From Candidatus Latescibacterota bacterium (GTDB lineage Bacteria > JAAXHH01 > JABIQT01), in NCBI GenBank assembly GCA_018667995.1, contig JABIQT010000372.1:1-11318 (forward strand): a stretch of 11,318 nt of DNA. Reading direction: 5' to 3'. The notes beneath the pieces were generated by a model. That model was not told the DNA's origin and did not search any database. It saw nothing but the letters and a program-made list of their open reading frames with translations. Position 1 is the first letter of the stretch, and each line of letters opens with the position of its first letter. Shown here piece after piece: positions 1 through 11,318 of the stretch. Made by a program: the position numbers and the translations under genes.

Positions 1-630
1 AACGTAGGCAGTCATTCCATCACGTTTACAGTGAGTGATGGAAACGGAGGAACAGACTCTGAAGTCGTTCAGATAACTGTCGCGGAAAGCTCTTCCTCTA
101 ACTCCGGTCCTATTCTTGCTTCGGTGGGATCAAAATCGGTGGTCGCTGGGTCGTCCTTGTCGATCATCTTGTCGGCGTCTGATGTTGACGGGGACGCTCT
201 CAGCTACTCAGTATCCGGCAATCCCGCAGGTTCTTCCCTTTCTGGAACGACGTTCTCCTGGACTCCTGAATCCGGAGATGTCGGGACGCATAACGTCACT
301 TTCTCCGTGAGTGATGGGAACGGAGGATCGGATTCAGAGGTCGTCCAGATCACCGTTGAAGGGGTGCAGAACTCTAATCCAGTTCTTGCGAGCATCGGTC
401 CTCAATCAGTAAAAACTGATGGCTCGACGCTTACCATCACCTTGTCGGCGACCGACTCCGATGGGGACGTACTCACTTATACGGTGTCGGGCAATCAATC
501 GGGATCGGCACTTTCCGGCTCGGAGTTCTCTTACACACCTCTGGCATTAGACACCGGTACCGTCCCTGTCACGTTCACCGTGAGCGACGGGAACGGTGGT
601 TCGGACTCAGAGGTCGTCCAGATCACGGTG
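1..630 (+). repeat. Tandem Ig-like repeats of about 91-92 codons
   Basis: Three copies lie at 1-84 (only the C-terminal part), 109-357 and 376-630. The motif VSDGNGG(T/S)DSEVVQITV starts at 31, 307 and 580, giving periods of 276 and 273 bases. The last two copies share almost the same bases over DSEVVQIT. Each unit has an SDG turn and a DxDGD segment typical of calcium-dependent bacterial Ig/cadherin-like (He_PIG-type) domains. More copies probably lie upstream. The units likely form a rigid extracellular stalk. Confidence 0.85.
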
Positions 631-3600
631 AGCGTTGGAAACCTGGCACCCGTACCTCAGGCAATCAACGCGGTCACATCCGAAGATCAAGCAACAGAGA
701 TTCAACTCTCAGCGACTGATCCCGATGGCGATGCGGTCTATTTCTTACTCTCGACTCAGCCGAGTCACGGATCAGCGTCGCTGTCCGGGGACGTTCTTAC
801 ATACACTCCAAATCCTGACTACGCTGGACTCGACACAGTTGGCTATGCAGCCACAGATAGTTCACTGACATCAGAGATTGAGTTTATCGTCATTGATGTG
901 ACCCAAGTCAACGATGCGCCGTCACTGCCATCACAAGTGACAGAGGTGAATGAGGACGAGACGCTTCTACTGGTGCTCTCCGTTTTCGATCCAGACGGAG
1001 ATGAAACTTCCCTCCGTCTCGTTGTCGCGCCCGATCATGGATCAGTTGAACTTGGCGACAATCAAATAGAGTACACACCTGCTTCAGAGTATTCCGGACC
1101 AGACAGTCTGCAATTGGCTGTGTCCGACGGTCAAATCGAGTCCTCGGCTTGGATCTCAATCAATGTCCTGTCTGTCAATGATCCTCCGGTTTTCCACGCT
1201 GTGACAACTGAGTTTGCGATCGAAGAACTCGATACGCTGCGGATTGTCCTAGAGACTTCGGATCCTGAGGAGAAGGTGTTGGGATTGAGGGTAGTCACCG
1301 CCCCCGTAGGCCTGGAAATGGAGTTTGGCATCGTCACATGGGTCCCTGATGCGACTCAGGCAGGTGAATATGAAATAGTGTTTGAGGTCCTTGACCTAAA
1401 AGGTGGCAGTAGCACGATCACGTTTTCTGTCGAGGTCGCCAACGTCAACCAGCCGCCGACGATCGAGGTGGAGAGCAGGCTAGTGTTCCATGAGGGGGAA
1501 AGTGGAGGCTATGTAGTCAAGGTAAACGACGTCGATGACGATCCTGTCACCCTGAACTTTGAAGCGGATAACGAGGGTATATCGATCCAAGACAGCGTGA
1601 TTACCTGGACCCCGGATTTCGAGGCTGCCGGAGAATGGCAAGCGACCTTAACGGCAGGTGATGGCCTGGCAGAGACGATCGTTCAACTGAGGTTGGTTGT
1701 GGTCAATGTGAATCGGCCACCAACTGCAGATCCCGTGGTCCCACAGAGCATCGACGTTGGTGACACTTTGCGTGTCGAAGTGGTCGCGGAAGACCCAGAT
1801 GGCGATCTGGTAGTTTTCGAGTTGGTTGAGAGCTACGCAGGCCTTTCAATGGAAGAGAACATTCTTACATGGGTCCCCGTGCTGGATCAAAGAGGAGATC
1901 GAGAACTCGCAGTCTTGCTAAGCGACGGCGAAGGTGGCGAGAGCACGCTCGTCGTCGTCGTATCGATTAAGGGGAAGATTCCATTAGCTCAGTTCACTGC
2001 CGATACCCAGATCGGACTGGCACCCCTAACCGTTCAGTTCACGGACATATCTGTTGGTCGCATTGACAACTGGTGGTGGGCCTTCGGTGATGGGGGGATC
2101 GGTTTCGAGCAGCATCCAACTCATGTCTACAGCCAACCTGGTGTGTATTCAGTCGACTTGCGTGCGAGTAATGATGATGGAGTTGCCTACGACACGCTTG
2201 AAGTGACGGCCCTCGAGGCAACAATCTATATCGGGTCCGCGCCTGAGTTAGCGGGTCCCACACCTACACTCGAAGTCGCTGCTAACCATTATCAGAGCGA
2301 ATCCGTCTCGATTCGAGCGTCGTTCACCCTGGATGGCGTAGAGTGGCGACCTGCGACAGTCGATCCTACCCGGGTTGAAGGATCGGCCAACGTCGTGTGG
2401 CGCTTCACTGAAGACGTGATGGAGCGGGGGGAATACGACGTTCGCATCGCATTTCAGCCCGAAGTAGAGCTCGGCCTGTCCGATACCGTCGCTTTCCATG
2501 TGAGTACCGTTGGACCCTCAATTGTCGAGGTGACTGGAGACTATGGCGGTCTGGAGATGCGCGTCCTCTTCGACAGGGAAGTGGTCATCGGTGACGGGAC
2601 ACAGTTCGAGCTTGAGGGGCTCGACGTCGAAGAAGTAATTCAGGAAGCGCCCGATGTAATTCGACTGCGGCTAAGCACTCCTCTGCCAGAGGGGGAACTG
2701 ACGCTGACGGCGCGTGAAGTGCTCGACGAGTTGGACGGTTCTGGAGGGGGGCGCTTTTCGTTCGTGCCGATGAACTCACCCCCAAGTGTTCGTATTGCAG
2801 AGGTGGAGCAGGCCGAGGCGGGGGAGTGGAACTTCTCCGTGGCCATCGAAGACGTGCAGAGTAATTCTGTCCAGCTGTCGGTTGAGTATCAGATCGGCAA
2901 TGACTGGATCTCCATCGATTTGGGAGGTCCTTTTGAGCCTGGCGAGCATTCACTGACATGGATTCCAACTGGCGACGTTTTGGGCTACCAGGGGGATCTC
3001 CTGGTTCGCATGTGGGGCACGGATATTGAGATGGGAGAAGTCGTCTCGATCGAGGTGGTAGTCGATCTCAACGATGCCCCGTTGCTTTCAAGCCTCACCA
3101 TTCCAGAGCCCCTCTCACGTCTGGTAGAAGTCGAATTTGAGGGATCAGATTCGGAAGCCGACAGCATCCATGTGGTTTTTGAATACGCTGTCGGTAGTGA
3201 ATGGTTCCAGGTGGACCCCGATGACATTTCTGTCAATCGTCAAGGCGATGGGTTTTCCGGAGTCATTTCGTGGGACACATTCGCTGAATTTGGCTATGGC
3301 GAGTTTCCCTCTGTTGCCATTCAGCTCTCCGCTGCGGATCTCGACACCACTTTTCTCGACACCGTCGTTACGATCCGCAACCTGGCGGGGGATTACGATG
3401 GAGACGGTCAGATTTCAGCCCCCGACTTGGCTGTATTCACGAGCCATTGGTTAGACGAATCTGCTGATGCGGATCTCGGACCGGCAACTGGTGATCTCCC
3501 ACTGTTGATACCGGAAGGTGATGGCCTATTGAACTTTGAGGATCTCCTTGTTGTCGCCCAGATGTGGAACTGGTCCATTGGGATCATCCCACAAGGGGTC

Positions 3601-4218
3601 GTTGGGAAATCCACAGGAAATGAGAATCTCGCCTTTACAGAACTAACCACCCAAGAGGGACGACTGCGTGTAGTCGTTGATCCATATGGAGCTCTGTCGG
3701 CGGACGTGACTATCCGTCTTCACGGGGAGGATGTAGAGGTCGTGTCGCCGCAGTCCTTCGTAATGAAACGTAGGTCCGAGGGTTTATTGGAGGTCTTCGT
3801 CGGTGCCTTGGACGGTGCCCCATCTCCGTTCTCTGTGACCATCGAGGATCCAACGACCGTTCATGGCGTCACGCGCATCTGGAATACAGACGGCACACTG
3901 CGCACTACAGAATCCTGGAGCTACACCCCTCCGCAGCCACAGGCTACTTCACTCACGGGCAGCTGGCCGAATCCGTTCAATTCCTCGACCACGATCGGCT
4001 TGGAGGTGTCCGACGAATCCTTCCTAACGCTGAACGTATACGATGTCCTTGGTCGGCGGGTGCGGTCACTACTCTCCGACATGCTTCCCGCAGGTGTCCA
4101 CCAAGTTGTGTGGGATGGTCGAGATGACGAAGGGCTATCTGTTGGAAGCGGAATCTACATCGTCCGAATGGTAGCTGACGACGTCATGTCCCTTCAGCGC
4201 GTCCTGCTGCTAAAATGA
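1..4218 (+). CDS. Giant Ig/cadherin-repeat, PKD and dockerin-like surface protein with C-terminal T9SS-type sorting domain (5' end missing)
   Basis: The frame is open from base 1 with no start in view; the GTG at 31 lies inside an Ig repeat, so the true start is upstream. 1405 residues are visible. Modules in order (visible residue numbers): Ig-like tandem repeats 1-210; five more Ig/cadherin-like units 214-659; PKD 660-740 with the WWWAFGDG core; four Ig/FN3/Big_5-like modules 741-1127; dockerin-like EF-hand domain 1131-1191; a beta-rich linker of unknown type 1192-1316; FlgD-Ig/T9SS type A sorting domain 1317-1405. The visible protein is acidic and has no cysteine, as is common in secreted repeat proteins. 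It should be exported through its C-terminal signal and act outside the cell as a stalk or adhesin; no catalytic domain is seen. Its stop overlaps the next start, so it is probably cotranscribed with two lipoprotein genes. Confidence is high for the gene and the sorting domain, low for any ligand. Confidence 0.95.
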   Translation, partial: NVGSHSITFTVSDGNGGTDSEVVQITVAESSSSNSGPILASVGSKSVVAGSSLSIILSASDVDGDALSYSVSGNPAGSSLSGTTFSWTPESGDVGTHNVTFSVSDGNGGSDSEVVQITVEGVQNSNPVLASIGPQSVKTDGSTLTITLSATDSDGDVLTYTVSGNQSGSALSGSEFSYTPLALDTGTVPVTFTVSDGNGGSDSEVVQITVSVGNLAPVPQAINAVTSEDQATEIQLSATDPDGDAVYFLLSTQPSHGSASLSGDVLTYTPNPDYAGLDTVGYAATDSSLTSEIEFIVIDVTQVNDAPSLPSQVTEVNEDETLLLVLSVFDPDGDETSLRLVVAPDHGSVELGDNQIEYTPASEYSGPDSLQLAVSDGQIESSAWISINVLSVNDPPVFHAVTTEFAIEELDTLRIVLETSDPEEKVLGLRVVTAPVGLEMEFGIVTWVPDATQAGEYEIVFEVLDLKGGSSTITFSVEVANVNQPPTIEVESRLVFHEGESGGYVVKVNDVDDDPVTLNFEADNEGISIQDSVITWTPDFEAAGEWQATLTAGDGLAETIVQLRLVVVNVNRPPTADPVVPQSIDVGDTLRVEVVAEDPDGDLVVFELVESYAGLSMEENILTWVPVLDQRGDRELAVLLSDGEGGESTLVVVVSIKGKIPLAQFTADTQIGLAPLTVQFTDISVGRIDNWWWAFGDGGIGFEQHPTHVYSQPGVYSVDLRASNDDGVAYDTLEVTALEATIYIGSAPELAGPTPTLEVAANHYQSESVSIRASFTLDGVEWRPATVDPTRVEGSANVVWRFTEDVMERGEYDVRIAFQPEVELGLSDTVAFHVSTVGPSIVEVTGDYGGLEMRVLFDREVVIGDGTQFELEGLDVEEVIQEAPDVIRLRLSTPLPEGELTLTAREVLDELDGSGGGRFSFVPMNSPPSVRIAEVEQAEAGEWNFSVAIEDVQSNSVQLSVEYQIGNDWISIDLGGPFEPGEHSLTWIPTGDVLGYQGDLLVRMWGTDIEMGEVVSIEVVVDLNDAPLLSSLTIPEPLSRLVEVEFEGSDSEADSIHVVFEYAVGSEWFQVDPDDISVNRQGDGFSGVISWDTFAEFGYGEFPSVAIQLSAADLDTTFLDTVVTIRNLAGDYDGDGQISAPDLAVFTSHWLDESADADLGPATGDLPLLIPEGDGLLNFEDLLVVAQMWNWSIGIIPQGVVGKSTGNENLAFTELTTQEGRLRVVVDPYGALSADVTIRLHGEDVEVVSPQSFVMKRRSEGLLEVFVGALDGAPSPFSVTIEDPTTVHGVTRIWNTDGTLRTTESWSYTPPQPQATSLTGSWPNPFNSSTTIGLEVSDESFLTLNVYDVLGRRVRSLLSDMLPAGVHQVVWDGRDDEGLSVGSGIYIVRMVADDVMSLQRVLLLK
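640..1977 (+). other. Five diverged Ig/cadherin-like units within gene 1
   Basis: Units lie at about 640-921, 922-1188, 1189-1458, 1459-1722 and 1723-1977. Junctions are marked by VNDAP, VNDPP, VNQPP and VNRPP, the usual linker style between tandem-95/VCBS/cadherin-like repeats. DPDGD calcium-ligand-like motifs recur in several units (for example near 721 and 1795). They have diverged far more than the repeats at 1-630, so they are an older duplication. Inferred role: spacer of the surface stalk. Confidence 0.75.
1978..2220 (+). other. PKD domain within gene 1
   Basis: The segment begins PLAQFTADTQIGLAPLTVQFTD and carries the PKD hallmark W-x-FGDG (WWWAFGDGG), followed by HPTHVYSQPGVYSVDLRASN. 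This matches the conserved H-x-Y...G-x-Y-x-V-x-L pattern of PKD domains. It sits between the cadherin-like array and a different set of Ig-like modules. Confidence 0.9.
2221..3381 (+). other. Four further Ig/FN3/Big_5-like modules of gene 1
   Basis: Boundaries by eye are 2221-2508, 2509-2775, 2776-3072 and 3073-3381. The second resembles SbsA/Big_5 bacterial Ig domains, with PSIVEV...LEMRVLFDREV...RLRLSTPLPEGELTLTAREVLDELDG. The third and fourth resemble each other: NSVQLSVEYQIGNDWISID pairs with DSIHVVFEYAVGSEWFQVD, and each has a later TWIP or SWDT strand. They are an internal duplication of an FN3-like unit. No catalytic motif is visible. Confidence 0.55.
3382..3576 (+). other. Dockerin-like EF-hand domain of gene 1
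   Basis: The first loop DYDGDGQISAPD at 3391-3426 has acidic or oxygen ligands at EF-hand positions 1, 3, 5, 7, 9 and 12 (D, D, D, Q, S, D) and is followed by the hydrophobic helix LAVFTSHW. The second half, PEGDGLLNFEDLLVVAQMW, keeps E3, D5, G6, N9 and D12, but position 1 is Ile, so its calcium site is degenerate. The two halves are separated by an ADLGPATGDLP insert. Dockerins bind cohesins; the next gene encodes a cohesin-like domain. Calling this a functional dockerin rather than an EF-hand spacer is inference. Confidence 0.75.
3949..4218 (+). other. FlgD-Ig / T9SS type A C-terminal sorting domain of gene 1
   Basis: Hallmarks in order are PNPFN (3967-3981), LNVYDVLGRRVR (from 4030), AGVHQVVWDGRDDEG (around 4096-4134), SGIYIVRM (from 4147) and the terminal VLLLK followed by the stop. 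This is the conserved layout of the C-terminal domain that targets proteins to the type IX (Por) secretion system in FCB bacteria, also annotated as a FlgD-like Ig domain. It supports outer-membrane translocation and surface attachment or release. No T9SS gene is in the window. Confidence 0.88.
4215..4218 (+). promoter_or_regulatory. ATGA stop/start overlap coupling genes 1 and 2
   Basis: The TGA of gene 1 (4216-4218) overlaps the ATG of gene 2 (4215-4217). No clear Shine-Dalgarno sequence precedes this ATG (upstream bases are GTCCTGCTGCTAAA). This fits translational coupling or re-initiation after gene 1. The ATG is followed directly by a lipoprotein signal peptide, which supports it as the true start. 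Confidence 0.8.
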
Positions 4219-4268
4219 CTTCTTCCAAGTGGTTGCCTCTTGCCCTTGTGGTTAGCCTCGTAGCCTGC
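4215..4268 (+). other. Lipoprotein signal peptide of gene 2
   Basis: MTSSKWLPLALVVSLVAC has a lysine at residue 5, a hydrophobic core and a lipobox L15-V16-A17-C18. Asp follows at +2. The mature chain then runs through a short polar linker (DVPTGNDDN) into the first BACON-type repeat. This predicts Sec export, cleavage by signal peptidase II and lipid anchoring. Confidence 0.9.
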
Positions 4269-7200
4269 GATGTGCCAACGGGGAATGACGACAATCCGCT
4301 CCTATCAGTGGATCCTGGCACGCTGGACTTTGGGACCGAAACGGAGAGTCTCAATCTCAGAATCCAAAATGATGGAACGGGTGAACTGGCCTGGAAGATT
4401 TCCATTCCAGCTACCGACCGCGCCTGGATAAAGACAAGCATGGAGGCCAATGTCATAACGAACGTGCCTGACGTCGTGTCGGTCACCATCGATCGATCGT
4501 TAGCACAAAATGGGTCTCGATCGGTCGATCTCTCGGTTTCGGGACCGGATACTGTAGCGAACGTCATCGTTCTTGCGGTGATCGAACGCCCCGCGGTCTT
4601 GAACGTCGACCAAACTAGCCTGGACTTCGGTGCGACCACCGATAAGAGCCAAATTGGACTTCGCAACTCCGGGGGGGAGAACCTAACCTGGCAAGCAAGC
4701 ACATCGCAGCCATGGATCACGATCACGCCAGAGACTGGTTCGATTGCTCCTGGTGAAGCACGAACAGTCGAAATCTCGATTTCCCGCGAGGGGCAAGTTG
4801 CTGGCGATCTTCCCGGTACGGTGACGATTACATCCAGTGGAGGAGTGCGAGACGTCGATGTGCGAGTGCTCATCTCCGATGCTGGGCGACTCACTCTCTC
4901 AACCAACACTCTTGAGTATGGCGAGAGCCTGACGTCTCTGCAGATGGAAGTGAGCAACACTGGTGACGCCCCACTGGATTGGTCGGCCACTTCCGACCAG
5001 ACGTGGATCTCGTTATCACCCGATAGCGGAACTCTGGGACCCGGCGAGGCACGGTTTGTCACGGTTCTATTGTCTCGGGATGGACAGACGGCTGATCTGC
5101 TTGGGACGATTGAGTTTTCGTCCGATGCTGGTGATGCCTCGGTTTCCGTGGGCGCGCGTTTGCCCACCGTGCCACTGCTATCAGCAACGCCCGCGACTCT
5201 GAACTTCGGGGCGGGGACGAATCGTCTGAACGTGACGCTACAAAATATTGGGGGGACGACCCTCGAGTGGTCGGTGGGATCCAGTGATTCGTGGTTGGTC
5301 CCACTGACTACATCAGGCGCTATTCTGGCTGGCGATACACGAACGATCGTCGTCGAAGTAAGCAGATCAGACTTGTCAGTTTCCACACATCAAGGCAAGC
5401 TGACGTTTTCTACATCCGGCAATGATGTCACACTCGACGCGACGGTGACTGTTCAGGCCGCCCCGGAATTGGGACTGTCCAGCAACTCCATCGAGGTCTC
5501 AGCGGACGAAGATGGGTTCGTGTTACGTATTTCTAACGCCGGAACAGGAACTCTGAACTGGGTCGCGACCCAGACCAGTGCGTGGTTGTCGATAGACAAT
5601 GCAGAGGGCTCAACAAGCGATCTTGCCAATGTGATAACCGGAACTGTTTCGAGGCAGGGGCTGACGGCCAACGAGTACTCGACGAAGATCTTTGTCACCT
5701 CTGATGGTGGCAATGGTGAAATCTTGGTTACGATGTCAGTCGCGGCGCCAGAGGTTCGATTTGCATCGGGCCCCGATGAAGAGCAATCGGCCAACAGCAG
5801 GACCGCAACATTTGAGTTGGCAGCAAAGCGAACATCGGGAGCTGTCGAGTTTTCGACACGACTTGATGGTGGCCAATGGTCGGCTTGGTCTGAAGATCCA
5901 TTCGTTAGTTATGGAGGGCTCGAGGAATCTTCGTCGTTTGGCCTGCATGAGATCGAGGCGCGAGCACGGACGTTTGTAGGTGAGAGTGCGGTCGCGACGC
6001 GCTTCTTTTCGGTTGACGCACTCCAGGGCCCTTCCATACGAATCGCACCGTCCGAAATCGAGATCGATACCGGAGAGAGACTGACGATCCAGGTCGTCCT
6101 CGAGGAGGTGTCTGGTGTTTTGGGTGGGAATGTCATCTTGATCTTCGATCCAGAGAAGGTCAGCGTCACTGACGTGAGTATGTCGCGGCAAGCTGGATCA
6201 CTGGTCGAGGAGACCCCGCAGATTTCTCCATTCATCTCCAACGAGGATGGTCGACTCGTCGTGGGTTTTGCCGCCCCCGGCTTGGATACCGGCATCAACG
6301 GTACTGGCGCAATCATCGATCTGGTGATCGTCGCAACGTCGAACAGTTCAATCGCGATCAGCGGGCAGTCAACGCTCAGAGATCTGGCCAATCAGGATAT
6401 TCCACTGACCATTGGCGCGGAGGCCCGGATTCAGGTTTCCGGACGACAAGGGCCCAGCAGTACGATCCTTTCCCCAATTGACGCCTTGCAGGTAGAGGTA
6501 GGGACAGTGATCCAATTCGAGGGTGTCGCTTCAGATCCTGAGGATGGCCCCCTCGAAGGATCATCGCTGGTATGGTCTTCGGATATAGACGGACAACTTG
6601 GTATTGGTGCTCAACTGAGGTTGTCGTTGACGGTGGGATCTCACAGAATCACGCTCGCTGCAACTGACAGTGATCAAAATACGACCACCACGTCAATCAC
6701 TTTGGCTGTCCAGCCAGCGGCTAACGCTGGGCCAACAGCGAACGCGGGAGCCAACAAAACAGGTCAGGAAGGCGATGCAATATCGTTTGACGGTTCAAGG
6801 TCCACGGATTCCGACGGCATCGTAGCGAGCTACCTGTGGACGTTTGGTGACGGCACAAGTTCGGCAGAAGCATCAGTCAGCCATGTTTTCGCAGATGACG
6901 GCAACTACAGCGTCAGACTGACGGTCACCGATGATTCGGGTGCACAAGGCAGTGATACGATTCAGGTAGCCATTCAGAACGTCGCTCCGGTCGCCCGGAC
7001 GCACGGTCCATACGCTGGCACCGTAGGTGAGCCGATCCAGTTTTCCGGGAGTGTTGAAGATCCCGGGATCAATGACTCACACACTTTCGCGTGGGATTTC
7101 GGAGACGGTACGAGTGGGATCGGCCCGGGTGCTGAGCACACTTTCAATGCTGCAGGCGACTTCAATGCAACGCTCACGGTTACCGACAACGATGGAGGGA

Positions 7201-8105
7201 TAGGAACAGATTCAGCGCCTGTAAGGATATCCAGCCTGAGTTCCCCCGAAGGGACGATTGTGTTAGATGTTCCATGGCCGCAGATCGTTGACGCGGGTAC
7301 CATTGCTTTTTCGACACACAGAAACCGGCATTTAGAGATATATACGGTGGAGTCAGATGGCAGTACCCCGCAGCAGGTCATCCCAAATGATAGCGGTGAT
7401 GGCCCCCATGACAGCGAGCCTGCATGGTCACCTGATAAAAGTCAGATCTGCTTTGTGAGGTCCAACAGGATCTATGTGGTGAATGTCGATGGTTCAGATG
7501 TGAGGCCGCTTACCGACGGATACGATTACTCCCCAGCATGGTCACCAGATGGCACCCGTATAGCGTTCGTTTCGGACCGAGATGGTAGTCAGGACATCTT
7601 CATTATGGACGCAGACGGCACCAATGAGGTTAACCTCACTAATGACGGACCCAATAACTGGCGGGGTGGGAAGATGTCTGCGAGTCCGGCACCTGCTTGG
7701 TCTCCAGACGGGAGTCAGATCGTCTTCTCTTCTCTGCGAAGTGGCAATTGGGATCTTTATGTGGTTAGCGCCGCGGGGGGAAGACCATCTCTGCTGCTCG
7801 CCGATTCAAGCGAAGATCTAGCACCTTCATGGGCACCCAATGGCGAGGAACTCGTATTCGCGAGCAACCGCAAGGGGAAGGGCCAATGGCAGATATTCAA
7901 GTGGCGCGTTGGTGATCCTGCTGTAGTCAACATCTCGAACAGCCCGTATGCAGATACCGAACCGGTCTATTCGCGTGATGGATCACGCATCTTGTTCACG
8001 TCGAACAGAACCGGTGGCGCAGATCTGTATATCATGCAGGCGGATGGGAGCCAGCAAACACGGGTGACACTTGACCCTGAGGTAGATGACCAGGGCGCAT
8101 GGTAA
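4215..8105 (+). CDS. Lipoprotein with BACON-type repeats, cohesin-like domain, PKD domains and TolB-like propeller
   Basis: The gene is complete: 1296 residues, ATG start to TAA. Domains: lipoprotein signal 1-18 (lipobox LVAC, Cys18); five BACON-type beta-sandwich repeats of about 95 residues, 27-511; an Ig-like module 512-604 resembling Y_Y_Y domains (STRLDGGQWSAWS...GLHEIEARA); a cohesin-like domain 605-743; an Ig/PKD-like module 746-834; two canonical PKD domains 837-1007 (WTFGDG, WDFGDG); a six-repeat PD40/TolB-like propeller about 1016-1296. The only cysteines I see are Cys18 and Cys1079. No enzyme active site is recognised. It is probably a lipid-anchored envelope or surface scaffold whose propeller and cohesin-like domain bind other proteins or glycans. 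The start overlaps gene 1 by 4 bases and the end overlaps gene 3 by 7 bases. Domain calls are firm for PKD and propeller, good for BACON, moderate for cohesin. Confidence 0.96.
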   Translation: MTSSKWLPLALVVSLVACDVPTGNDDNPLLSVDPGTLDFGTETESLNLRIQNDGTGELAWKISIPATDRAWIKTSMEANVITNVPDVVSVTIDRSLAQNGSRSVDLSVSGPDTVANVIVLAVIERPAVLNVDQTSLDFGATTDKSQIGLRNSGGENLTWQASTSQPWITITPETGSIAPGEARTVEISISREGQVAGDLPGTVTITSSGGVRDVDVRVLISDAGRLTLSTNTLEYGESLTSLQMEVSNTGDAPLDWSATSDQTWISLSPDSGTLGPGEARFVTVLLSRDGQTADLLGTIEFSSDAGDASVSVGARLPTVPLLSATPATLNFGAGTNRLNVTLQNIGGTTLEWSVGSSDSWLVPLTTSGAILAGDTRTIVVEVSRSDLSVSTHQGKLTFSTSGNDVTLDATVTVQAAPELGLSSNSIEVSADEDGFVLRISNAGTGTLNWVATQTSAWLSIDNAEGSTSDLANVITGTVSRQGLTANEYSTKIFVTSDGGNGEILVTMSVAAPEVRFASGPDEEQSANSRTATFELAAKRTSGAVEFSTRLDGGQWSAWSEDPFVSYGGLEESSSFGLHEIEARARTFVGESAVATRFFSVDALQGPSIRIAPSEIEIDTGERLTIQVVLEEVSGVLGGNVILIFDPEKVSVTDVSMSRQAGSLVEETPQISPFISNEDGRLVVGFAAPGLDTGINGTGAIIDLVIVATSNSSIAISGQSTLRDLANQDIPLTIGAEARIQVSGRQGPSSTILSPIDALQVEVGTVIQFEGVASDPEDGPLEGSSLVWSSDIDGQLGIGAQLRLSLTVGSHRITLAATDSDQNTTTTSITLAVQPAANAGPTANAGANKTGQEGDAISFDGSRSTDSDGIVASYLWTFGDGTSSAEASVSHVFADDGNYSVRLTVTDDSGAQGSDTIQVAIQNVAPVARTHGPYAGTVGEPIQFSGSVEDPGINDSHTFAWDFGDGTSGIGPGAEHTFNAAGDFNATLTVTDNDGGIGTDSAPVRISSLSSPEGTIVLDVPWPQIVDAGTIAFSTHRNRHLEIYTVESDGSTPQQVIPNDSGDGPHDSEPAWSPDKSQICFVRSNRIYVVNVDGSDVRPLTDGYDYSPAWSPDGTRIAFVSDRDGSQDIFIMDADGTNEVNLTNDGPNNWRGGKMSASPAPAWSPDGSQIVFSSLRSGNWDLYVVSAAGGRPSLLLADSSEDLAPSWAPNGEELVFASNRKGKGQWQIFKWRVGDPAVVNISNSPYADTEPVYSRDGSRILFTSNRTGGADLYIMQADGSQQTRVTLDPEVDDQGAW
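4293..5747 (+). repeat. Five tandem BACON-type repeats in gene 2
   Basis: Units start at about 4293, 4590, 4878, 5169 and 5463, and the array ends near 5747. Shared pattern: L-S-(x)5-L-D-F-G, then a V-x-N-T-G-x-x-x-L-x-W strand, then S-x-x-W-I-x-(I/L)-x-P-x-x-G (for example NTGDAPLDW and QTWISLSPDSGTLGPGE in unit 3). The paired tryptophans are typical of BACON domains in FCB-group surface proteins, which are thought to bind carbohydrate or mucin or act as spacers. The repeats are diverged at DNA level. Unit 5 has lost the DFG motif and unit 1 lacks the P-x-x-G turn. Confidence 0.8.
6027..6443 (+). other. Cohesin-like domain of gene 2
   Basis: The segment starts PSIRIAPSEIEIDTGERLTIQVVLEE and continues with VSGVLGGNVILIFDPEKVSVTDV. 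It then has a loop with NEDGRLVVGFAAPG and the strand GTGAIIDLVIVATS. This order (V-x-x-G-x-x-F/L-x-V-x-V; L-x-(Y/F)-DP-x-x-(V/L); DG-x-(L/I)-x-(V/F); G-(S/T)-G-x-(L/I)) is the cohesin-family nine-stranded jelly-roll signature. Cohesins bind dockerins; a dockerin-like domain ends the preceding gene. A non-cohesin beta-sandwich remains possible. Confidence 0.7.
6450..7238 (+). other. PKD/Ig-like triplet of gene 2
   Basis: The first unit (6450-6717) is a PKD-like Ig domain with ASDPEDGPLEGSSLVWSSD and ending HRITLAATDSD. The second (6723-6980) and third (6981-7235) are canonical PKD domains with LWTFGDG...SHVFADDGNYSVRLTVTD and AWDFGDG...EHTFNAAGDFNATLTVTD. They separate the cohesin-like domain from the propeller and probably act as a spacer. 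Confidence 0.88.
7260..8102 (+). other. TolB-like six-repeat beta-propeller of gene 2
   Basis: Six PD40/WD40-like repeats carry the signature I-x-F-x-S-x-R...D-I-(Y/F)-x-M-x-x-DG...AWSPDG. Examples are PAWSPDGTRIAFVSDRDGSQ and IFIMDADGTNEVNLT near 7540-7640. The final repeat ends at DQGAW immediately before the stop. That matches the strand before SPDG, so the fold is probably closed by the N-terminal strand of the domain near 7300. TolB-type propellers bind partner proteins; no catalytic residues are evident. Confidence 0.9.
8092..8105 (+). promoter_or_regulatory. Gene 2/gene 3 overlap and weak ribosome site
   Basis: Gene 3's ATG at 8099 lies upstream of the gene 2 stop TAA (8103-8105), a 7-base overlap. 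A weak AGGG lies at 8092-8095, only three bases before the ATG, and a GAGG lies further upstream near 8080. An in-frame ATG at 8123 also leaves an intact signal peptide, but it has no obvious ribosome site. The 8099 start is therefore preferred and suggests translational coupling. Confidence 0.6.
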
Positions 8106-8185
8106 CTCCACGATTACAGCGGATGATTCCACGTTCCTGCCTCTGTATCGCGACGGCCATGACCTTGCTGTTAGTGACGTCATGT
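8099..8185 (+). other. Lipoprotein signal peptide of gene 3
   Basis: Arg4, Arg8 and Arg12 precede a hydrophobic stretch (LCIATAMTLLL) and a lipobox V26-T27-S28-C29. Asp is at +2, as in gene 2. The mature N-terminus continues as a short polar linker (DRSRSADSPVRPDG). Sec export and lipid anchoring are predicted. Confidence 0.85.
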
Positions 8186-11100
8186 GATCGTTCGCGATCC
8201 GCGGACTCCCCTGTTAGACCGGACGGTGTTGGTCAGATTTCGCTTCGCGTAGAATGGCCCGCAGGTGTGGTATCCCAGAAGAAGGCCGCACAGATAGATT
8301 CCATGTCGGCCTATGTATACAGCACTTCCGGTGCCCAAGTCGCTCGGGCATCGTTGGAAAGGGTGGCTGGCAGAGGAACGGCTTCACTGCTTGTCCCTGT
8401 TGGAGTCGGCTATTCGGTCGAATTGGTCGCGTTTCTTGGTGAGAATGTCGCCTTCATCGGGAACAGTGGCGACATCCAGATCGCAGCAGGAGAGACTGTG
8501 GTGGTCGCAGTCCAGATGCGCTCGACATTACTGACTCTCCGGCAGCTACCTTCGTCGGACTCCATGAGCGAGGTGGCGTGGTTAGCCGTTCAAGGCATCG
8601 ACTCTTATGTCTTGGAGAGTTCATCTGATTACGGGTTTTCTGATCCTCTTGTGGCGGCGTTGGCGACCTCGGCCAATGCGAGGCTTGTGGTCAATCCCGA
8701 ACGAATCTTTCTAAGGGTGAGAGGGACGACTGCATACGGACCTGGACTTTGGAGTTCGGGGATCCGCCTCGAGGTATCGACCTCGTCCACTGACGTGTTG
8801 ACGGTCACTCTGCCCGGCGGCCGGACGATGGAGTTCGTCTGGATCGAGCCGGGGACATTTGCCATGGGGTCGCCATCGTCGGAACCTGGACGGTTGGCGA
8901 GCGAGGGGCCGCTTCACGAAGTCACAATCACCGTAGGCTTCTGGCTAGCGAAATATGAAATCACACAGGATCAGTGGGAAAGTGTGATGAGTACGAATCC
9001 AAGCAGTTTCCAAGGAGGAAATGATCCCGTTGAGAATGTGTCCTGGGATGATGTACAAGACTTCATTGGCCAACTTAACCAAACCGGGGAAGTAGTATTT
9101 CGACTGCCCAGCGAAGCAGAATGGGAGTATGCGTGCCGGGCCGGTACTGCCACTGCATGGTCGTTCGGTGATGATAAGAGTCAATTGGATTATTTTGCCT
9201 GGTACCTAGCGAACACATCGGGTATACCACAGGAAGTTGGGCGCAAGCTTCCTAATGCATTTGGCCTGTACGATATGCATGGCAATGTAGCGGAATGGGT
9301 TCAGGATTGGTTTGGTGGATATTCAGCTGGCAGTCAGGTCGATCCCCTGGGTCCCACGGGTGGCAATGACAGAGTCTACCGCGTCGGCGGGGCGAAGAGC
9401 CTTCCTCGGTATGTGAGGTCGGCTTTCCGTGGATTCGGTTCACCCTCGCTCCGTGTTCACGACATAGGCGCACGCTTGGTCATGCTGAGTGAAACAGGGA
9501 TGGTGAACAGGCCGCCAACCGCTGACGCTGGTGAAGACGTTGCAGTTGCTGTTGGAACGCCCGTCCAACTAAGCGGCCTCGCTAGTTCCGATCCTGATGG
9601 CGATGAACTGCAATTCACCTGGAGCCAGATCGGGGGACCCGTGACTGCCACGGAGGCCGATCGGACAGCAGAGCTTGTCTTCACTCCCATGGACGTGGGC
9701 GACTACGTCTTTGAGTTGAGGGTGTCAGATGGCGCTCTCGAGAGCACACCTGACACCGTATTCGTTTCCGTGGGGCCTGACATCGCCTTCTTCGAGGATT
9801 TTGAAGGTAATCTGGGCCAGTGGATTGAACCCTACAACTCGATCATAACCCAAGGCCAGTCTTACGACGGCTCTGGGAGCCAAACATTCGAGTTGACATC
9901 TGACTCCAGAGCAACGACTGCACACAGTGTCGGCTTTGAGGTCGAACCGGGCACTACGTATTACTTCCACGTCGCCCATATGACACTTGGGGGAGGTGGG
10001 CTACTGGGTTTCGACAGACTCGCCTCCGTTGACGCTCTTGAGAGAGAGGAAGATTCCGTTTGGTTGTTTGGCGATGGTAGTGCAGGAAGCCTTCAGCCCT
10101 TTCCCTACAACGTTGATAGCCAAGACTCGGATGAACTCAGCGTGTGGAAGGTCTATTCACAGGCGTACACCATACCATCCGGGGTAAGAGCCATTCGGGT
10201 AGTCACAAAGGACTTTCAGGAGGGGCTACCCAATGATCCCATTGGCGCGGGAGTGTTCTTCGACAACATCGAGGTGTCGACAGATCCGACGCCCTCGTAC
10301 GGTACCGGGACGCGGCCTGCAAATCGTGCGCCGACCGGGAACACTCATGAGATGGTCCATGTGTCATCCGGTTCATTTGCCATGGGCTCGGAAGAGGCGC
10401 TTGACCTGTCGCCGGTTCACACTGTCGAGTTGTCAGGCTACTGGATCGACAAGTTCGAGGTGACGAACTCCCAGTATGCGGTCTACGTGGCAGAGGGCGC
10501 AGGCCAGGCATCCCAGTACGCGAATGATGGAACCTTCAATCGTGCTCAGCAACCGGTGGTAGGGGTGTCGTGGTACGACGCGGATGGTTACTGCCGGTGG
10601 GCGGGGCAGCGGCTGCCAACGGAGGCGGAATGGGAGAAGGCGGCGCGGGGGACCGATGGCCGGACCTACCCGTGGGGTGAGGAAATGGCGACCTGTGAGC
10701 GGGCTGTCATGTATTCTATCAGTGAAGACCAAGCCTCTTGCGGGACTGGATCAGGAGCATGGGACGTGGGCTCAAAGTTAAGCGGCGTGTCGCCATATGG
10801 AGTACTGAACATGGCAGGGAACGTCTCGGAGTGGGTGGCGGACTGGAAAGCACGCTACCCTTCGGGCACTGTAAGCGATCCCACTGGCCCAGACAATGAT
10901 CAGGGTGACGGCAAGGTCATTCGTGGAGCGTCGTGGAGACATTCGCACCCGTACTTCTTGAAGTCTGCAGCCCGTCTACGTAATCCACCGGGTAACAAGA
11001 ATGGGGATGAGACGGGATTTCGGTGCGTAAAGAGCGTCCAGGCCACCCTGCCCAATCGTCCGCCAACTGCAGACGCTGGTTCCGCCTTAGAGATTGAGTT

Positions 11101-11318
11101 GGGACAGTCGGTCACACTTGATGGCAGTGGAAGCAGCGATCCGGATGACGATCAACTGCTGTATCTGTGGGCACAAGTCGAAGGGCCTTCCGCAGAGGTG
11201 ACTTCCGGCAGCGCGGCGATAGCATTCGCGATTCCGACCACAGTCGGACGGCATCGGTTCCGGCTGACGATTAGCGATGGTGTCTCAGATCCGCAAGTTG
11301 ACGACGTGATTGTCTCGG
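8099..11318 (+). CDS. Lipoprotein with two SUMF1/EgtB/PvdO-family (FGE-sulfatase fold) domains, FN3-like and PKD modules (3' end missing)
   Basis: I translated this frame by hand: 1073 codons from ATG 8099 to the window edge without a stop, so the gene continues. Domains: lipoprotein signal with Cys29; beta-sandwich 45-141 of unknown family; FN3-like 148-228; FGE-like domain 1, 242-463; PKD 470-559; jelly-roll-like 560-730; FGE-like domain 2, 752-979; PKD 986 onward. Both FGE-like domains keep the fold signatures F-x-MGS, LP(S/T)EAEWE and GNV(A/S)EW. The region that holds the two catalytic cysteines of true formylglycine-generating enzymes has none here (residues 428-441 and 942-957). They are therefore more likely binding domains than sulfatase activators. 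Cys866 and Cys881 in domain 2 could form a disulfide. No sulfatase gene is nearby. The gene overlaps gene 2 and probably belongs to the same transcript. Confidence 0.95.
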   Translation, partial: MVTPRLQRMIPRSCLCIATAMTLLLVTSCDRSRSADSPVRPDGVGQISLRVEWPAGVVSQKKAAQIDSMSAYVYSTSGAQVARASLERVAGRGTASLLVPVGVGYSVELVAFLGENVAFIGNSGDIQIAAGETVVVAVQMRSTLLTLRQLPSSDSMSEVAWLAVQGIDSYVLESSSDYGFSDPLVAALATSANARLVVNPERIFLRVRGTTAYGPGLWSSGIRLEVSTSSTDVLTVTLPGGRTMEFVWIEPGTFAMGSPSSEPGRLASEGPLHEVTITVGFWLAKYEITQDQWESVMSTNPSSFQGGNDPVENVSWDDVQDFIGQLNQTGEVVFRLPSEAEWEYACRAGTATAWSFGDDKSQLDYFAWYLANTSGIPQEVGRKLPNAFGLYDMHGNVAEWVQDWFGGYSAGSQVDPLGPTGGNDRVYRVGGAKSLPRYVRSAFRGFGSPSLRVHDIGARLVMLSETGMVNRPPTADAGEDVAVAVGTPVQLSGLASSDPDGDELQFTWSQIGGPVTATEADRTAELVFTPMDVGDYVFELRVSDGALESTPDTVFVSVGPDIAFFEDFEGNLGQWIEPYNSIITQGQSYDGSGSQTFELTSDSRATTAHSVGFEVEPGTTYYFHVAHMTLGGGGLLGFDRLASVDALEREEDSVWLFGDGSAGSLQPFPYNVDSQDSDELSVWKVYSQAYTIPSGVRAIRVVTKDFQEGLPNDPIGAGVFFDNIEVSTDPTPSYGTGTRPANRAPTGNTHEMVHVSSGSFAMGSEEALDLSPVHTVELSGYWIDKFEVTNSQYAVYVAEGAGQASQYANDGTFNRAQQPVVGVSWYDADGYCRWAGQRLPTEAEWEKAARGTDGRTYPWGEEMATCERAVMYSISEDQASCGTGSGAWDVGSKLSGVSPYGVLNMAGNVSEWVADWKARYPSGTVSDPTGPDNDQGDGKVIRGASWRHSHPYFLKSAARLRNPPGNKNGDETGFRCVKSVQATLPNRPPTADAGSALEIELGQSVTLDGSGSSDPDDDQLLYLWAQVEGPSAEVTSGSAAIAFAIPTTVGRHRFRLTISDGVSDPQVDDVIVS
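8231..8782 (+). other. N-terminal beta-sandwich and FN3-like domain of gene 3
   Basis: Residues 45-141 (ISLRVEWP...ASLLVPVGVGYSVELVAF...IQIAAGETVVVAVQM) read as a prealbumin-like beta-sandwich that I cannot name. Residues 148-228 fit an FN3 pattern: VAWLAVQGIDSYVLESSSDYGFSDP, then IFLRVRGTTAYGPGLWSSGIRLEV. Both are probably spacers or binding modules before the first FGE-like domain. Confidence 0.55.
8822..9487 (+). other. FGE-sulfatase-like domain 1 of gene 3, non-catalytic
   Basis: The domain begins MEFVWIEPGTFAMGS and has the family landmarks FWLAKYEITQDQW, VENVSWDDVQDF, LPSEAEWEYA (residues 336-345), FGLYDMHGNVAEWVQDW (GNVAEW at 395-400) and a final GARLV. The usual RGGSW segment is replaced by RVGGAKSLPRYVRSAFR (from 428), with no cysteine. 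The only cysteine is Cys346, outside the active-site region. The fold is C-type-lectin-like, so ligand binding is plausible. Confidence 0.9.
9506..9775 (+). other. PKD-like domain 1 of gene 3
   Basis: NRPPTADAGEDVAVAVG leads into SDPDGDELQFTWSQIGGP and ends with VGDYVFELRVSDGALES. This is the PKD/REJ-type Ig fold common between surface modules. It closely resembles the domain that begins at 11054. Confidence 0.85.
9776..10291 (+). other. Jelly-roll-like module between the FGE-like domains
   Basis: FFEDFEGNLGQW at the start, a central VEPGTTYYFHVAHM strand and the end GAGVFFDNIEVS fit the frame of CBM4/9-like or galactose-binding-like beta-sandwiches, which typically end in a D-(N/D)-(I/V)-x-(V/L) strand. 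I infer a carbohydrate-binding fold, but no ligand residues can be assigned. It is absent after the second FGE-like domain in the visible part. Confidence 0.5.
10352..11030 (+). other. FGE-sulfatase-like domain 2 of gene 3, non-catalytic
   Basis: Landmarks are MVHVSSGSFAMGS, YWIDKFEVTNSQYAVYV, PVVGVSWYDADGYCRWAGQRLPTEAEWEKAARG, YPWGEE, YGVLNMAGNVSEW (GNVSEW at 907-912), KVIRGASWRHSHPYFLKSAAR and a terminal GFRCV. It is closer to the family consensus than domain 1, but His and Phe stand where the two catalytic cysteines would align. Cysteines are at 832, 866, 881 and 976. Confidence 0.92.
11054..11318 (+). other. PKD-like domain 2 of gene 3 (cut by the window edge)
   Basis: NRPPTADAGSALEIELG, SGSSDPDDDQLLYLWAQVEGP and VGRHRFRLTISDG repeat the layout of the domain at 9506-9775. 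The repeated FGE-PKD order suggests further modules beyond the window. Confidence 0.85.

Follow-up and report, generated by a model that had tools for sequence, protein, structure and literature searches.

Adjacent genes for a cohesin lipoprotein and a dockerin-bearing type IX secretion protein point to a candidate non-cellulosomal surface pair in uncultured bacteria

The window analysed here is the 11,318-bp contig JABIQT010000372.1 of a Candidatus Latescibacterota bacterium (assembly GCA_018667995.1). It encodes two adjacent proteins, one with a dockerin-type domain ahead of a type IX secretion system (T9SS) sorting tail and one a lipoprotein with a divergent cohesin. The same two parts are encoded side by side in G016, a KSB1 metagenome-assembled genome, and in a clade of further KSB1 bacteria. 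Judging from domain types and gene neighbourhood, the cohesin of the lipoprotein probably docks the T9SS-exported dockerin protein, as a non-cellulosomal surface pair formed between two proteins. All window features given below lie on the plus strand.

The dockerin-type EF-hand pair of gene 1 spans positions 3382 to 3576 (aa 1128–1192). Loop 1 (DYDGDGQISAPD, 3391–3426, aa 1131–1142) is a canonical 12-residue EF loop with ligands at D1, D3, D5, S9 and D12, and loop 2 (IPEGDGLLNFED, 3508–3543, aa 1170–1181) is non-canonical. Both loops were aligned in a 22-member set of this dockerin subtype (alignment A5), which follows the pattern GDxDxD...GPxxG..P......DG..NFEDL.VF..MWNW. Against the window, the Pfam profile Dockerin_1 covered the first half of the domain only and reached 22.0 bits at a cut-off of 22.9, and the isolated domain matched it with an E value of 1.9e-4. 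Fifteen of the 22 members matched Dockerin_1 at E <= 0.1. The top PDB matches of the A5 profile are cellulosomal dockerins (2vn5, E 3.5e-4; 5nrm; 5nrk), and the profile also aligns, in a profile-profile comparison, with the canonical dockerins found in the host (E 2.4e-5, probability 75%). A relationship to calmodulin had been indicated by a three-row profile; it is superseded by the 22-row profile, whose top matches are dockerins. Type I dockerins carry two duplicated canonical 12-residue calcium loops, an arrangement that gene 1 does not have. Since the canonical pattern is confined to loop 1, with no Asp at position 1 of loop 2, we assign the domain to a dockerin-like subtype and not to the type I dockerins.

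The cohesin of gene 2 (6024–6443, aa 604–743) was recognised through its family. The isolated domain (6015–6455) had no match in Pfam, and its top phmmer match in the PDB was the cohesin ScaC 4uyp with an E value of 0.017. Family profiles built without the window sequence scored it at 39.3, 29.1 and 22.1 bits, compared with a maximum of 5.2 bits among 200 shuffled sequences. Of the 17 aligned family members, 13 matched the Pfam Cohesin profile (best 6e-9), so that membership of PF00963 is reached via the family and not via the window domain alone. The gene 2 cohesin, the G016 homologue and the KSB1 lipoprotein cohesins were combined in alignment A4, the profile of which has cohesins as its top PDB matches and weakly matches the PDB cohesin 2xdh (E 0.16), which we take to be that of Archaeoglobus fulgidus. 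From these profile matches the region is classified as a divergent cohesin. It is the only cohesin recognisable in the window when profile scans are set against shuffled sequences. Known cohesins have a nine-stranded jelly-roll fold whose 8-3-6-5 face binds the dockerin. AlphaFold2 models of the immunoglobulin-like (Ig)-cohesin module of gene 2 and of the dockerin-to-tail part of gene 1, each from a two-row alignment, had predicted local distance difference test (pLDDT) scores of about 42.9–44; Foldseek matches of the gene 2 model (pLDDT 42.9) were immunoglobulin noise and were discarded.

The two proteins carry a sorting tail and a lipobox, respectively, and their genes overlap. Gene 1 (1–4218, truncated at its 5' end by the contig edge) encodes Big_9, cadherin-like and He_PIG Ig repeats, PKD, the dockerin-type domain and a T9SS/FlgD tail, as assigned by Pfam and TIGRFAM. 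The sorting tail, of T9SS type A/FlgD-Ig (3955–4215, about aa 1319–1405), scored 27.7 bits against TIGR04183 (cut-off 23), as would be expected of T9SS cargo, and FlgD_ig matched this C-terminus, beyond the dockerin, with an E value of 7e-10. Gene 2 (4215–8105) begins within an ATGA overlap with the gene 1 stop codon (4215–4218). Its product has an N-terminal lipobox (MTSSKWLPLALVVSLVAC, LVAC, with Cys18), BACON_2 repeats, an Ig-like plus cohesin module, PKD domains and a PD40/TolB-type propeller. The Ig-like domain (5742–6023, aa 510–603) aligns with that of the cohesin lipoprotein in G016. The sequence-only reading of the window had placed a dockerin-type domain at 3382–3576 before a sorting signal, a cohesin-like domain at 6027–6443 on a lipid-anchored protein, Ig, BACON, PKD and propeller modules, and a direct coupling of the two genes, all of which were borne out. 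Profile searches, which it had put forward as a check, support both domains at family level, whereas the window domains by themselves fell below threshold (dockerin) or went unmatched (cohesin).

The pairing of the two parts recurs outside the host. A search of related genomes found a single homologue of the gene 2 cohesin, a 284-aa Ig-cohesin lipoprotein in G016. Its gene is followed after 151 bp by that of a T9SS protein of 1896 aa, the dockerin of which is of the gene 1 subtype and 47% identical to the window dockerin. A contig scan with the two-row alignment returned the G016 locus and unrelated Ig proteins only. Starting from a named KSB1 locus we then surveyed 82 genomes of the KSB1 group, as delimited by a phylum grouping; G016 has a phylum of its own in that grouping, and is counted apart from these. 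The dockerin subtype was found in 18 of the 82 genomes, at 20 sites, and the full-length cohesin lipoprotein, by reciprocal search, in 20. Both parts were present in 17 genomes and neither in 61, with four mismatches (raw Fisher p = 1.2e-13, kinship ignored). In the three genomes with the lipoprotein only (G060, G064 and G071) the lipoprotein gene is directly followed by the 5' part of the giant gene, which is then cut by the contig end, and in the one with the dockerin only (G061) the dockerin is on a 3-kb contig. The survey of whether loci keep both domains, which the sequence-only reading had proposed, came out in favour of the pair, the four mismatched genomes all involving contig ends.

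Sixteen KSB1 sites have intact upstream sequence, and at 15 of them the gene immediately preceding the giant gene encodes a cohesin lipoprotein of about 280 aa; the gap between the two is 1–91 bp at 14 of these 15 and 341 bp at the other. The KSB1 lipoproteins have a Cys motif like the lipobox of gene 2. In the window the dockerin gene comes first, whereas in KSB1 and G016 the lipoprotein gene does; because the order is inverted, the linkage is not just one inherited gene order. The host genome (6 Mb) has one copy of the dockerin subtype and one of the lipoprotein-type cohesin, next to each other; both are missing from the remaining 15 genomes of the phylum. Genomic linkage and co-occurrence are thus as would be expected of a cohesin-dockerin pair.

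Among the operon modules compared, the dockerin, the sorting tail and the lipoprotein cohesin are the most constrained. Across 15 operons the mean identity was 67% for the dockerin, 47% for the sorting tail and 45% for the lipoprotein cohesin; the cohesins of the giants themselves had 33% and 28%, and the neighbouring SH3 protein 32%. Constraint on the dockerin extends beyond the calcium ligands, with MWNW, GP and FEDL kept. What every lineage examined has retained is the dockerin together with the lipoprotein cohesin.

The partner proteins scanned have no Pfam match to enzymes of the kind found in cellulosomes. The KSB1 giants scanned consist of varying mixes of VWA, PKD, carboxypeptidase-regulatory-like, laminin-B-like and BNR-propeller domains plus a T9SS tail; in the G016 giant, FG-GAP repeats occur together with one cohesin C-terminal to the dockerin. 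Ten T9SS-type proteins of the host with dockerin or cohesin matches have mostly NHL, LDLR-type, FG-GAP or Ig domains. Pfam matches to glycoside hydrolases or carbohydrate-binding modules (CBM) were found neither in gene 1, gene 2 and these ten host proteins, nor in seven giants (six of the KSB1 group and that of G016). The window yielded no glycoside hydrolase, as the sequence-only reading had stated. Cellulosomes have dockerins on glycoside hydrolases and a multi-cohesin scaffoldin with a CBM; none of this is seen here, and the locus is not a cellulosome.

A mechanism can be proposed from these architectures. The C-terminal tail would direct the gene 1 product to export by the T9SS, and the exported protein would form a long stalk of Ig and PKD modules with a calcium-binding dockerin among the last folded ones. 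The lipid-anchored gene 2 product would receive this dockerin through its Ig-cohesin module, and the secreted stalk, in KSB1 a giant VWA/propeller protein, would thereby be held to, or organised with, the lipoprotein. Mutual binding, calcium dependence and an adhesive or structural role are what we infer for the pair. There is about an even chance that these loci represent a dedicated two-part surface-display system of uncultured T9SS bacteria, in which a cohesin lipoprotein and a giant non-enzymatic T9SS protein with the dockerin subtype serve adhesion or surface architecture, not polysaccharide degradation, possibly with chaining through the giants' cohesins.

Several observations weigh against docking on the lipoprotein. 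The Asp at position 1 of loop 2 is absent in 22 of 22 members; the gene 1 loop retains D5, N9 and D12. The T9SS translocon protein SprA is represented in the host by one sub-threshold match (E 7e-6). One KSB1 site (L111) has a dockerin gene that no lipoprotein gene adjoins, although a further operon in that genome is complete (L117), and the Fisher value overstates independence because the KSB1 genomes are related to each other. Furthermore, in most KSB1 giants two cohesins directly flank the dockerin (Coh1-Doc-Coh2-CTD, where CTD is the C-terminal domain), so that the dockerin could bind those instead. Mirror-tree distance correlations do not separate the candidate partners, being 0.72 for dockerin and lipoprotein cohesin and 0.75 for dockerin and Coh1. 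The pairing that the sequence-only reading had drawn from gene order is thus strengthened by its recurrence in G016 and the KSB1 clade, but has to share the field with the giants' own cohesins as alternative partners.

These cohesins are the basis of the strongest alternative, in which the dockerin binds cohesins of its own family. Binding would either take place within one molecule, giving a compact stalk of the form Coh-Doc-Coh, or link successive copies head to tail; the lipoprotein cohesin would be a paralogue serving to cap or nucleate the assembly, or employed otherwise. The arrangement of the KSB1 giants and the correlation with Coh1, as good as that with the lipoprotein cohesin, are consistent with this, as are more than a dozen host T9SS proteins that combine dockerin and cohesin-like domains in a single chain. 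However, the gene 1 dockerin has no recognisable cohesin on either side. The region separating it from the sorting tail (3586–3954, aa 1196–1318) corresponds to a cohesin of the relatives and scores 1.5 bits here, inside the shuffle range; the idea that it is a degenerate cohesin was dropped, as no cohesin profile scores above shuffles. The G016 giant likewise lacks Coh1, and the giants' cohesins diverge faster, whereas the dockerin and the lipoprotein cohesin are kept in all lineages. We regard own-family docking as unlikely, at something above a one-in-five chance.

A less probable explanation is that the genes are linked functionally, in the same complex or regulon, and that cohesin and dockerin do not touch. 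On this view calcium would stiffen the EF-hand into a linker ahead of the sorting tail, and the cohesin would be a spacer with an ordinary beta-sandwich fold. A non-canonical loop 2 in every member would suit such a linker, both domains sit among many Ig-like spacers, and copies of cohesins and dockerins are common in T9SS proteins of this kind. A spacer would, however, hardly be the most conserved part measured (67% versus 28–47% for the other domains), with non-ligand positions included, nor would it co-occur near-perfectly with the cohesin lipoprotein, and we consider this reading doubtful. A chance neighbourhood of frequent modules, possibly on a mis-binned contig, is very improbable: cohesin matches in the host number 11 and dockerin matches 21, weak ones included, and the dockerin subtype does not occur elsewhere in its phylum, but the specific subfamilies are single-copy and adjacent in the host and are neighbours in KSB1 as well, contamination is unsupported with a tetranucleotide correlation of the window to host contigs (0.472) inside the range of the host contigs (0.316–0.616), and mis-binning would leave the linkage intact.

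Docking of the T9SS protein on the lipoprotein, the reading that we prefer, can be compared with several known systems. In Bacteroidota, T9SS cargo with a C-terminal sorting tail reaches the cell surface and is anchored by anionic lipopolysaccharide (A-LPS) or by partner proteins; retention here would instead use a cohesin lipoprotein encoded beside the cargo gene. The clostridial cellulosome is anchored (type I/II) by a cell-anchored cohesin that receives a secreted dockerin protein, which resembles the proposed arrangement, and the profile matches reach its modules. In contrast, the pair described here comes with no cellulases or CBM scaffoldin, has a lipid anchor and the T9SS in place of surface-layer homology (SLH) domains or sortase, and has a variant dockerin loop 2.

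Cohesins and dockerins not tied to cellulose are also found in archaea. Strong, specific binding of archaeal non-cellulosomal pairs has been verified, in work as cited in PMC9012536, and scaffoldin-like proteins with a dockerin and several cohesins per chain occur in anaerobic methanotrophic (ANME) archaea (PMC9012536). The A. fulgidus pair has been employed as a binding module (PMC9705933). Like these archaeal pairs (A. fulgidus, ANME), the window pair consists of modules in organisms and proteins not tied to cellulose; it differs in combining a bacterial lipoprotein with a T9SS-exported partner, in its dockerin subtype, of which one loop is canonical, and in the conservation of the gene pair in KSB1. 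A cellulosome-like T9SS-linked complex has been proposed for the Cloacimonadota ‘Ca. Stygibacter’ (PMC8542988), likewise a candidate phylum with dockerin and cohesin proteins, and its scaffoldin-like protein has a C-terminal surface-attachment domain (PMC8542988). In that complex the dockerins are carried by enzymes (GH18, GH57, peptidases) and many cohesins by the scaffoldin (PMC8542988), whereas the pair described here consists of a lipoprotein bearing one cohesin and a giant that is not an enzyme. The sequence-only reading had called the locus a distinct use of the cohesin-dockerin pair, which was overstated because non-cellulosomal pairs have already been reported (PMC9012536, PMC9705933, PMC8542988). 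What is new is that a lipoprotein is combined with a T9SS protein, that the dockerin belongs to a distinct subtype, and that the pair is conserved; we found no report in the open literature that treats dockerins and KSB1 together.

Outside Bacteroidota, little is established about how cells retain T9SS cargo at their surface, and the pair suggests a little-described means of holding giant secreted proteins there. Non-cellulosomal cohesins and dockerins are usually catalogued without partners, whereas a conserved, single-copy, adjacent pair names a specific partner that can be tested. It also suggests that cohesin-dockerin binding is a general extracellular assembly device, and could yield new orthogonal binding modules.

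The host genome contains further cohesin-dockerin combinations. More than a dozen of its T9SS proteins (loci L042–L057, on contigs that include C317, C667, C920, C725, C124, C944 and C1037) end in a canonical dockerin, a cohesin-like domain and a FlgD-type tail, and several have an additional cohesin N-terminal to the dockerin. This cassette is possibly a genome-wide self-complementary assembly module. On the minus strand of contig C348 (L048:2652–3932), the gene of a dockerin-cohesin-like-tail protein is directly followed by that of a 162-aa secreted protein, which resembles a lone cohesin-like domain and has no Pfam match by itself. The third gene there encodes a protein with cohesin matches, making this a second dockerin-then-cohesin neighbourhood in the host genome.

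The KSB1 operons (L100–L118) have a third conserved gene, upstream of the lipoprotein gene at most sites. It encodes a protein of about 270–300 aa with a signal peptide, an Ig-like domain, SH3_3, a second Ig-like domain, a C-terminal membrane span and a short tail ending in VEW. The site lacking an adjoining lipoprotein (L111:6736–15837) is syntenic with L102, with GreA, UbiA-like, Dtd and Maf-type flanks named by eye; its SH3 and lipoprotein genes are missing and its dockerin protein is short (1184 aa). Genome G062 has an extra copy of the SH3 and cohesin-lipoprotein genes with no giant partner (L155:7991–9762), in which the SH3 gene is split between frames and may be decaying.

In the window, gene 2 is overlapped by gene 3 (8099–11318, truncated at the contig end), which encodes a lipoprotein with two FGE-sulfatase domains and PKD. 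A counterpart of gene 3 is not part of the cohesin/dockerin pair in the relatives. The FGE-sulfatase domains gave GldK/PvdO-like profile matches under the cut-off, and the protein is a third lipidated member of the operon.

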